From: Candidatus Beckwithbacteria bacterium
GTDB lineage: Bacteria > Patescibacteriota > Microgenomatia > UBA1400 > UBA1449
Direction of reading: 5' to 3'
NCBI GenBank assembly: GCA_012797845.1
Contig: JAAZOH010000019.1
Coordinates: 1-43,660 of the forward strand
DNA length: 43,660 nucleotides
The translations under genes were made by a program, and so were the position numbers. Below, piece by piece: positions 35,192 to 37,088 of this stretch. The notes under the pieces were generated by a model that saw only the letters and a program-made list of their open reading frames with translations, was not told the DNA's origin and searched no databases. Within the stretch, counting starts at the first letter, position 1. Each line of letters begins with the position of its first letter.

Positions 35192-36433
35192 TTATTGTTT
35201 CAGCTTAGTAATTGCTTCTTCCAAAGTAGTAGTAACTTGTTCACCGTTGCTTAAGTTTTTGAGCGTGACTGTATTTTGAGCTACTTCTTCATCACCTACA
35301 ATAACTACATACGGAATCTTTTTTTGGTTGGCTAGCTTGATTTGTTTACCAATATTATCAGTTGTTAAAGAAAGTTCTGCGGATATGTTTTGAGCTCGTA
35401 ATTGTTGACATATTGTTAGTGAGTATTTCTGTAAATCTTGATTAAATATAGTGATAAATACTTGTGTACTACTTTTGTTCGATTCGAAAAAATTGTTTTG
35501 TTTAACAAGCTCAACTATTCGATCAAAACCTAAACCAACTCCAACCGCTGGTATTTCAATTCCTCCCAGTTGTTTAATCAAATTGTCATACCGACCACCA
35601 CCACCCAAAGAACTACTATAAGCTTTAGATTTAATTTCAAAAATCATTCCTGTATAGTAGTCTAAACCACGAGCTAATGTCGGTTCAAAGACTAGATTTT
35701 GTTCTGGAATACCTAAGTTTTGAGCAGCTACCATAATGGCCTTCAAATTGTTAGAAGGGCTAGCTTTTTGAATTTCAGTTAATACTTGTTCTGCTTTCGT
35801 TTTTTCTAAACCCTTAGCTGTAAGCTCAGCTACAACTTCTTCAGGTTTTAGCTTATCTAGTTTATCAATACTCTGAGTAATACTGAAAATATCTACATTC
35901 ACAGATGTAAAAGCCTGTAGAACTTGGAACAACACTTGTCGATCATTAATGGTAATTACAGTATCTGCAAACCCCAGGTTTTGAAAAATATCAAAACAGC
36001 AGGCCAAGATTTCTGCATCCGCTAAAGGACTTGTGCTACCGTAGATATCAAAGTCACATTGAGTAAATTCTCTAAATCTCCCTTTTTGTGGCTTTTCGGC
36101 CCGAAAGACATTTTGAAGCTGGTAACGCCGAAAGAAATTAGGTAGCTTCCCCTGATATTGAGCCAGCAACCGAGCAGTAGGTACTGTTTGATCATATCGT
36201 AATGCAATATCTCGTCCACCTCGATCTTTAAACTGATATACAAGTTTATCGGCTTCAGCACCATACTTACCCAGCAGAATTGAAGCATATTCTAAAGTAG
36301 GGGTTTCTAAGGGTTCAAAGCCAAAAAGTTCACAGCTTTGTTTAACCTTAGCTGCTACAAAATCTCTAACTCGTTTATCTTCTGGCAAAAAATCCCGAAA
36401 ACCCTTTAGGGTTTGTAAATTATTTTGTTTCAT
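35192..36433 (-). CDS. hisS: Histidyl-tRNA synthetase
   Basis: This 413-residue class II synthetase has motif 1 (KGFRDFLPED), motif 2 (FRAEKPQKGRFREFTQCDFDIYGS), the histidine-specific LARGLDYYTGMIFE and motif 3 (AVGVGLGFDRIVELV), followed by the anticodon-binding domain (IPYVVIVGDEEV). It charges tRNA-His. An extended -10 box and ribosome binding site (AAAGGA) lie directly upstream. A 52-codon gene and a T-box-like leader that may sense uncharged tRNA-His lie further upstream on the same strand. Confidence 0.96.
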   Translation of the reverse strand: MKQNNLQTLKGFRDFLPEDKRVRDFVAAKVKQSCELFGFEPLETPTLEYASILLGKYGAEADKLVYQFKDRGGRDIALRYDQTVPTARLLAQYQGKLPNFFRRYQLQNVFRAEKPQKGRFREFTQCDFDIYGSTSPLADAEILACCFDIFQNLGFADTVITINDRQVLFQVLQAFTSVNVDIFSITQSIDKLDKLKPEEVVAELTAKGLEKTKAEQVLTEIQKASPSNNLKAIMVAAQNLGIPEQNLVFEPTLARGLDYYTGMIFEIKSKAYSSSLGGGGRYDNLIKQLGGIEIPAVGVGLGFDRIVELVKQNNFFESNKSSTQVFITIFNQDLQKYSLTICQQLRAQNISAELSLTTDNIGKQIKLANQKKIPYVVIVGDEEVAQNTVTLKNLSNGEQVTTTLEEAITKLKQ

Positions 36434-36460: not shown

Positions 36461-36469
36461 ATTTTATCA
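36461..36469 (-). promoter_or_regulatory. Extended -10 promoter immediately before hisS
   Basis: On minus the sequence TGATAAAAT has TAAAAT at 36466-36461. Start of transcription would be near 36455, leaving a short leader with AAAGGA. Just upstream is a hairpin CGTGT/ACACG (36480-36494). This would let hisS be expressed independently of the leader RNA further upstream. Confidence 0.45.
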
Positions 36470-36526
36470 GAAATAACGACGTGTGGCCTACACGCTGCTG
36501 GTTCCTTGCAGATGTAAGCCATATTT

Positions 36527-36685
36527 TTAATCATCACTTGGCCTTAACCTATCAATAGCTATTGGTTGTTTTTTATCAGCGTCATCTTCATCTTGTAATA
36601 TTTCATTTTCATCATTTTTTCCAATGGTTTCTCCAGTTATTCGATCAATTACGATAGGAATCACTAATTCTGATTCTCTTTCCAT
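36527..36685 (-). CDS. Small acidic protein (52 residues), unlisted gene
   Basis: A short frame begins at an ATG at 36685 and ends in TAA at 36527. It has an excellent Shine-Dalgarno, AAGGAGGTG, eight bases before the ATG. The product starts MERESELVIPIVIDRITGET and ends IAIDRLRPSDD, with the word PI(V/A)IDR twice and an acidic middle (DEDDADKK). It contains no His, so it is not a His-rich leader peptide. It lies between the leader terminators and hisS. I know no family for it. The strong RBS and ordinary codon use argue for translation. Confidence 0.6.
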   Translation of the reverse strand: MERESELVIPIVIDRITGETIGKNDENEILQDEDDADKKQPIAIDRLRPSDD

Positions 36686-36706
36686 ATTTTTTCACCTCCT
36701 TTTTCC

Positions 36707-36769
36707 AACTAAAAAAGCCTCCGCTCTCTAGTTGCTATTAAATTAATAACAAACAGAGAACGAAGGCTT
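36707..36769 (-). terminator. Second terminator-like hairpin in the hisS leader
   Basis: On minus, AAGCCTtCGtTCTCT pairs with AGAGAgCGgAGGCTT over a long AT-rich upper stem (TATT/AATA), and TTTTTT follows. It lies ~22 bases before the small gene's ATG, too close for a separate promoter, so readthrough or antitermination is needed to make that gene. Confidence 0.65.
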
Positions 36770-36785
36770 ATCTATGCTTTTTTAG

Positions 36786-37050
36786 GCAAAAAATAAGGAC
36801 CTCCGCGGTCCCATCTCTTTTCTCATTAGCTATGAACTAATGAGCGCTTGGTCCCGCCTCCACCCTTTCGGACGACAACAGGTGTTTATTTTATACGGCA
36901 TAAACCTCTCCGGTCTCGATTTTGCAAGACAGCGCTCAAGTGCCTAACGTAGTTTCGATTACTATCGAAACGAAGTGGCATTTTCTTAAATCCTGGATCG
37001 TGACTCCAGTACAAACGCTTTTACTATTTACTTATGAAAGTATTATATCA
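36786..37050 (-). promoter_or_regulatory. T-box-like leader RNA with promoter and terminator upstream of the 52-codon gene and hisS
   Basis: The minus strand has an extended -10 box TGATATAAT (37050-37042); RNA starts near 37035. Stems: CTGGA/TCCAG (36993-37009), GTTTCGAT/ATCGAAAC (36952-36971), a closing stem AGCGCTCA/TGAGCGCT (36931-36938 with 36841-36848), and CTCATTAG/CTAATGAG (36822-36844) that competes with it. The end carries UGGGACCGCG (36813-36804), closely matching the T-box core UGGNACCGCG. The N is G, as needed for a tRNA with discriminator C, such as tRNA-His. GGACC/GGTCC (36811-36797) then forms a terminator followed by TTATTTTTT. A standard stem I with a His specifier was not clear. 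Confidence 0.6.
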
Positions 37051-37088
37051 TAAACTTTGATTTTACCCTTTCAACTAGCGTATTTTTC

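Follow-up and report, generated by a model that had tools for sequence, protein, structure and literature searches.

The window, by which we mean the whole 43,660-nt stretch of contig JAAZOH010000019.1 that was analysed (assembly GCA_012797845.1), comes from Candidatus Beckwithbacteria bacterium (Patescibacteriota/CPR, Microgenomatia), the genome of which, labelled G000, comprises 1.28 Mb in 46 contigs. Between positions 37080 and 36430 of the minus strand lie, in this order, a candidate promoter, a ~310-nt leader, a 52-aa ORF and hisS. The initial annotation had described a T-box-like core upstream of a small gene and a histidyl-tRNA synthetase gene. That core, TGGGACCGCG, is found exactly where it had been placed (36813-36804, minus strand), the small gene corresponds to the 52-aa ORF, which matched no Pfam family, and the synthetase 3′ of the leader is HisRS. 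The features are listed below, with helix numbers, pairing percentages and two-sided changes taken from alignment A2, a set of 22 leaders described further on.

37042..37074, minus: candidate promoter, read from the sequence, with TATAAT at 37047-37042 preceded by TGA (extended −10 type) and TTGAAA at 37074-37069, which is 21 nt off
36993..37009, minus: specifier hairpin (minimal Stem I), CUGGA-GUCACGA-UCCAG, with CAC at 37002-37000 in loop positions 3-5
36931..36992, minus: insertion arm separating the specifier hairpin from stem II; it is lineage-specific, and most relatives in alignment A2 lack it or have a different one
36913..36930, minus: stem II-like hairpin, GUCUUG-CAAAAU-CGAGAC (helix 3: two-sided changes in 5/5 pairs, 95.5% paired)
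36884..36912, minus: stem IIA/B pseudoknot, CGG 36912-36910 with CCG 36898-36896, and GUUUAU 36905-36900 with AUAAAC 36889-36884
36853..36882, minus: helix with the invariant UGU/GAG motif (helix 6: 92% paired, 6 pairs with two-sided changes)
36822..36844, minus: Stem III, CUCAUUAG..CUAAUGAG (helix 7: two-sided changes in 8/8 pairs, 74% paired; −9.2 kcal/mol)
36755..36818, minus: antiterminator, helix A1 AGAGA 36818-36814 with UCUCU 36759-36755, helix A2 GCGGAGG 36806-36800 with CCUUCGU 36766-36760
36813-36807, minus: T-box bulge UGGGACC, between helices A1 and A2
36788..36812, minus: T1 hairpin GGGACC/GGUCCU with a U-rich tract, its 5′ arm being the T-box bulge; also returned by an unsupervised terminator scan
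36711..36769, minus: T2, a canonical terminator followed by U6, its 5′ arm being the antiterminator 3′ strand, as in ordinary T-boxes
36527..36685, minus: 52-aa ORF, acidic, with a strong Shine-Dalgarno sequence, directly behind T2
35192..36433, minus: hisS, the presumed regulated gene (PF13393, 1.1e-40)

A promoter scan paired TTGAAA with an overlapping TATGAT, and this pairing was not above chance expectation. The specifier hairpin consists of 5 bp and a 7-nt loop, in which a U precedes and a purine follows the CAC triplet, and its predicted layout is that of a tRNA anticodon arm. The initial annotation had found no clear standard Stem I with a His codon and had suggested a divergent or minimal class, a guess that proved right: the standard Stem I is absent, and its place is taken by a minimal one with the specifier in a 5-bp hairpin. 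The His codon is nonetheless displayed, and was missed because it is not placed in an internal bulge. By reading rather than by structure, the AGAGA/UGxRA elbow-binding double T-loop motif is absent from the Stem I region, and the hairpin ends in the specifier loop. A base resembling the GA motif of a K-turn was seen in leader L187 and in a glyS leader, helix 1 is only 41% paired in alignment A2 as aligned, and the motif is not clear in the window.

Downstream of the hairpin, helices 4 and 5 of the pseudoknot are 94% and 84% paired in alignment A2 with covarying pairs, the window's own pairs having been read by eye. The UGU/GAG helix is a candidate counterpart of the S-turn helix, a role that is inferred. 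Stem III is flanked by AAGCG on its 5′ side and AAAA on its 3′ side, likewise by inspection, which meets the RRRxG/AA criterion, and AAG.G is conserved in alignment A2. The leader contains no short ORF rich in His codons, as a his leader-peptide attenuator would, and its first ribosome-binding site lies 3′ of T2; there is no sequestration of a ribosome-binding site, and U-tract terminators stand instead.

The position of this ribosome-binding site, which is strong and belongs to the ORF immediately behind T2, together with the start of hisS 278 nt past T2, would suit a reading in which the T-box mainly controls the 52-aa ORF while hisS is transcribed from its own promoter. However, the related L016/L186 leader has a small ORF of unrelated sequence in that position, and it is hisS or other his genes that recur downstream in relatives, which makes control of the ORF improbable as the main function.

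Inferred specificity for tRNA-His

The genome's own tRNA-His (G000:C39:38660-38732) has the anticodon GTG, G-1 and discriminator C73. The discriminator, which had been predicted from the bulge, is complementary to the bulge G, and the CAC in the apical loop of the specifier hairpin complements the GUG anticodon. Leaders of this kind with CAC precede hisS, hisG, tRNA-His and histidine-racemase-like genes, and the same scaffold with CGC, searched for without regard to genes, occurs before argG, argF and argH. The variable base of the bulge is G in 39/39 CAC leaders and C or U in all 17 CGC leaders (P = 1e-14, for sequences that are related and not fully independent). A wider comparison took in 37 short leaders for ten amino acids, selected for lacking a long Stem I and for having a gene that could be assigned; a hairpin loop held the cognate codon in 32 of them, against 20.7 expected with shuffled labels, and none of 20000 shuffles did as well. 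Full loop-loop pairing of the 7-nt loop with the anticodon loop was considered and rejected: the tRNA-His loop, CUGUGGA, gives three codon pairs and two possible G-U pairs. The evidence supports the original proposal of a tRNA-His-sensing T-box before hisS in a CPR genome, and we are close to certain that the leader is a T-box specific for tRNA-His.

The mRNA of E. coli ThrRS carries tRNA-like arms to which the enzyme itself binds, and a hairpin with anticodon-arm geometry upstream of hisS could be taken for a comparable site at which HisRS binds its own leader. Such autoregulation is very unlikely here, given that the loop carries the codon CAC and not the anticodon GUG, that the same leaders stand before hisG and tRNA-His, with a CGC version before arginine biosynthesis genes, and that it would account neither for the UGGNACC bulge nor for the agreement of that bulge with base 73.

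Several gene arrangements behind these leaders were recorded in passing. In L184, L191, L192, L194, L196, L204 and L222, the His T-box is followed immediately by a tRNA gene, with hisG after it; the tRNA gene of L184 was confirmed as tRNA-His, and the other six were read by eye only. In an arrangement of the L184 type, the switch would control the same tRNA that it senses. DapF-like proteins are encoded in the His T-box operons of L177 (2690-3529, minus strand), L190, L213 and L214, and the L177 protein matches histidine racemases best in NCBIfam (CntK, Fusobacterium type), at scores under the cut-offs of these families. Amino-acid racemase genes also stand behind the Trp-type leaders L102 and L163. 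The gene behind the His T-box of L185 resembles that of histidine ammonia-lyase (hutH), which is odd for a simple starvation-induced switch.

Homologous leaders and covariation

A 13-base pattern, GGAGTCACGATCC, was found in 7/88 genomes of the order (1 with a reversed-pattern control) and in 48/374 genomes sampled in the class (3 with the reversed pattern), mostly in such leaders. A T-box core followed 123-194 nt 3′ of the pattern in 39 of the 53 loci read, a set that includes a few genomes or records counted twice. Five CAC pattern matches (L182, L221, L229, L232 and L233) were dropped as chance occurrences without leader context. The core expected to be conserved in relatives is so, UGGGACC being present in 39/39 cored CAC leaders; the CAC lies in an apical hairpin loop instead of an internal bulge.

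The covariation that had been sought in the stems is present. Over the 52 pairs of alignment A2, 88.6% of cells are paired and 33 pairs are changed on both sides. The covariation score of 0.390 compares with 0.151 in shuffles and no more than 0.198 when partners are slid. One of the aligned sequences served as the source of the structure, so that the share of paired cells is biased in its favour. Of the pairs in the specifier hairpin, the search pattern leaves only the outer two unconstrained, and each of these is formed in 47/47 leaders, by CG, GC, UA or GU at one and UA, CG or GC at the other, whereas the next pair outward is formed in 1/47. Antiterminator helices 8 and 9 are 97.3% and 98.3% paired across the 22 leaders, with two-sided changes in 6 pairs, and T2 is 100% paired, with such changes in 3. 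R1, a covariance model of the decoding domain made only from leaders of other genomes, matched 36852-37022 of the minus strand with 50.4 bits and E = 2.5e-9 over 190 kb.

At the curated gathering cut-off of the Rfam T-box model, RF00230, which is 93 bits, no T-box was reported in the window, and with the threshold dropped the leader was matched weakly, at 19.2 bits; the standard Rfam tool alone would not have settled its identity. The close HisRS relatives with upstream sequence showed the core in only 1 of ~50 Microgenomates loci. This rarity, the indistinct base of Stem I with its K-turn and the hutH gene behind L185 count against a functional tRNA-His T-box, as do the low RF00230 score and the insertion arm, and the last two are what a degenerate T-box that has lost its function might show. 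Against such decay, none of the switch helices is broken in the window, where they differ from those of relatives in a compensatory way, and codon, bulge base and tRNA all agree, so that loss of function has very little to recommend it. Although a single 10-mer is expected about once per megabase, the chance meeting of a terminator hairpin with an accidental UGGGACCGCG is refuted by the homologous leaders in many genomes, and also faces a fold far better than that of shuffled sequences (z = −6.0, 0/100) and the E value of the independent model R1.

Among named genomes, the relatives of HisRS, at about 45-61% identity, belong mostly to Microgenomates (Roizman-, Beckwith-, Gottesman-, Woese-, Levy- and Daviesbacteria); together with the homologous leaders that many genomes in the class contain, they rule out a contaminating Firmicute contig.

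Terminators and proposed mechanism

The GGACC/GGTCC hairpin and T run that had been noted over the core are real and conserved. This hairpin, T1, has its stem at 36811-36807 / 36801-36797 in the window and recurs with a U tract in 37/39 cored CAC leaders. In L207, L213, L223 and L226, it forms through an alternative, longer pairing, GACCGC/GCGGUC, which suggests selection for the hairpin and not for the core sequence alone. T1 was not seen in the inspected Gly, Thr, Pro, Ser, Ile, Trp or Arg leaders and seems, from these sequences, to be particular to His leaders. It cannot be the only terminator, as the initial annotation had taken it to be, since the second, canonical one at 36769-36711 is longer and paired in all 22 aligned leaders. 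That T1 is itself a working terminator we hold somewhat likelier than its being idle, termination there being inferred.

The antiterminator and T2 are mutually exclusive, as 36766-36755 is common to both, and both covary. Folding energies of −9.4 kcal/mol for T1, −32.5 for T2 and −9.3 for the antiterminator alone fit a default-off switch that needs tRNA to turn on. Taking together the elements, codon, tRNA-end match, exclusive helices, conservation and gene targets, for which sequence and covariation provide the support, we read positions 37022-36711 (about) of the minus strand as a putative T-box riboswitch with a minimal Stem I that senses tRNA-His and terminates transcription, at a probability of roughly 0.9. 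That it acts on hisS by transcription termination is probable; no experiment bears on this, and a hisS promoter downstream of the leader is not excluded.

In the mechanism we propose, the nascent leader would show CAC in its 7-nt loop (GU-CAC-GA) for pairing with the GUG anticodon of tRNA-His, a binding that is inferred. The pseudoknot and the UGU/GAG helix would then probably dock on the codon-anticodon duplex, replacing the missing elbow-binding end of Stem I, and this docking is again an inference. If the tRNA is uncharged, its 3′ CCCA could pair with UGGG of the bulge and stabilise antiterminator helices A1 and A2, which would capture the T2 5′ arm and open T1, and RNA polymerase would continue through the small ORF to hisS. 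A tRNA charged with histidine would misfit at its 3′ end, and T1, partly formed of the bulge itself, or T2 would form and transcription would stop; this dependence on charging is inferred as well.

T-boxes elsewhere in the CPR

The initial annotation had held that T-boxes are not typical of CPR, which the surveys contradict. RF00230 matched 34 of 53 close relatives of the order at E <= 1e-3, with 8 genomes over the curated cut-off, and 86 of 287 genomes across the phylum at E <= 1e-5, with 9 over it. Among the control genomes, only Bacillus, Lactococcus, Corynebacterium, Thermus and Deinobacterium were positive in these two surveys. Given the matches over the cut-off, annotation of the Rfam type would already list some CPR T-boxes. 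Our search, limited to open-licence literature and thus weak evidence of absence, found no paper on T-boxes in CPR, and the switch type, widespread in the group, is apparently undescribed. Long-Stem-I T-boxes also occur (e.g. L087-L091).

Genome G000 itself contains two further T-boxes with the codon in an apical loop, L001 before glyS with GGC (G000:C25:4657-4842, minus strand) and L002 before thrS with ACC (G000:C29:20319-20502, minus strand), which have better Rfam scores than the His leader and UGGA bulges that match U73 of the genome's own Gly and Thr tRNAs. A tRNA-Gly(GCC) is absent among the typed tRNAs of G000, though the glyS T-box shows GGC; five longer matches are untyped, and the assembly is in 46 contigs. 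Outside the class, R1 gave two matches, L266 (before a hisG-looking frame) and L267, both with the UGGGACC core and without the U-tract terminator T2. The antiterminator 3′ strand of L266 is complementary to a ribosome-binding site, and translational forms therefore probably exist too.

Five leaders (L201, L205, L208, L215 and L275), which sit before hisS or tRNA-His, combine a CAC decoding domain with an intrinsic terminator and lack TGGNACC; L199, L200 and L230, also without TGGNACC, look degenerate. The decoding domains of L215, L205 and L208 score 98.8, 93.7 and 74.7 bits with R1, in the range of complete leaders, which argues against decay. Separately, an extra intrinsic terminator lies between decoding domain and core in L153, L172, L165, L240, L254, L085, L148 and others, and in some of these the strand just before the terminator is a possible pairing partner of the UGU/GAG helix at its 3′ strand; a partner search for upstream terminators in other leaders gave suggestive, mixed results. 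The core-less leaders and extra terminators suggest the hypothesis that, in this lineage, binding of the anticodon may by itself be read out. We can offer only tentatively, as a possibility that we would not bet on, that the CPR hold a T-box lineage of their own, in which the anticodon is read by an arm-shaped hairpin without elbow contact and coupled to terminators, and which has repeatedly yielded core-less leaders (the five above, with L199 and L200 degenerate) that read the level of tRNA-His regardless of charging.

Comparison with known systems

Descriptions of T-boxes present them as regulators in Gram-positive-like bacteria, and the transcriptional ones as generally dependent on a long Stem I for gripping the tRNA elbow. 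Here, a large uncultured phylum of small genomes uses T-boxes widely, often without the elbow grip yet with terminators. The leaders offer a natural minimal tRNA-sensing module, in which evolution has swapped codon and bulge base together (His to Arg), so that the minimal requirements of a transcriptional T-box become directly testable, and they allow regulons to be predicted in organisms about whose gene regulation hardly anything is known.

The window leader shares with transcriptional T-boxes of the RF00230 kind the UGGNACC bulge with N matched to tRNA base 73, the opposition of antiterminator and terminator, a Stem III with flanking purines, the IIA/B pseudoknot, and a synthetase or biosynthesis gene downstream. 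Unlike them, it has no long Stem I and no AGAGA/UGxRA elbow motif, it carries its specifier in a hairpin loop, and it adds a UGU/GAG helix after the pseudoknot and the terminator-like T1 that uses the bulge. The His-specific T-boxes of Lactobacillales, Listeria and others were found in Firmicutes with the RF00230 model (PMC9413887); the window leader resembles these in His specificity and his gene targets, but falls far under the RF00230 cut-off and belongs to a CPR genome. In a 2020 review (PMC7583486, citing Sherwood 2015), an ultrashort Stem I with an apical-loop specifier is tied to translational T-boxes of Actinobacteria of the ileS type. These are like the window leader in having a short Stem I without the elbow motif, an apical-loop specifier and a retained pseudoknot, and they differ in phylum, element order and codon; they sequester the ribosome-binding site, whereas the window leader ends in U-tract terminators. 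Judged by the core features tested, the leader belongs to the T-boxes, and for each established sub-kind there is one defining feature that it does not show; its short apical-loop Stem I coupled to terminators is a new combination.
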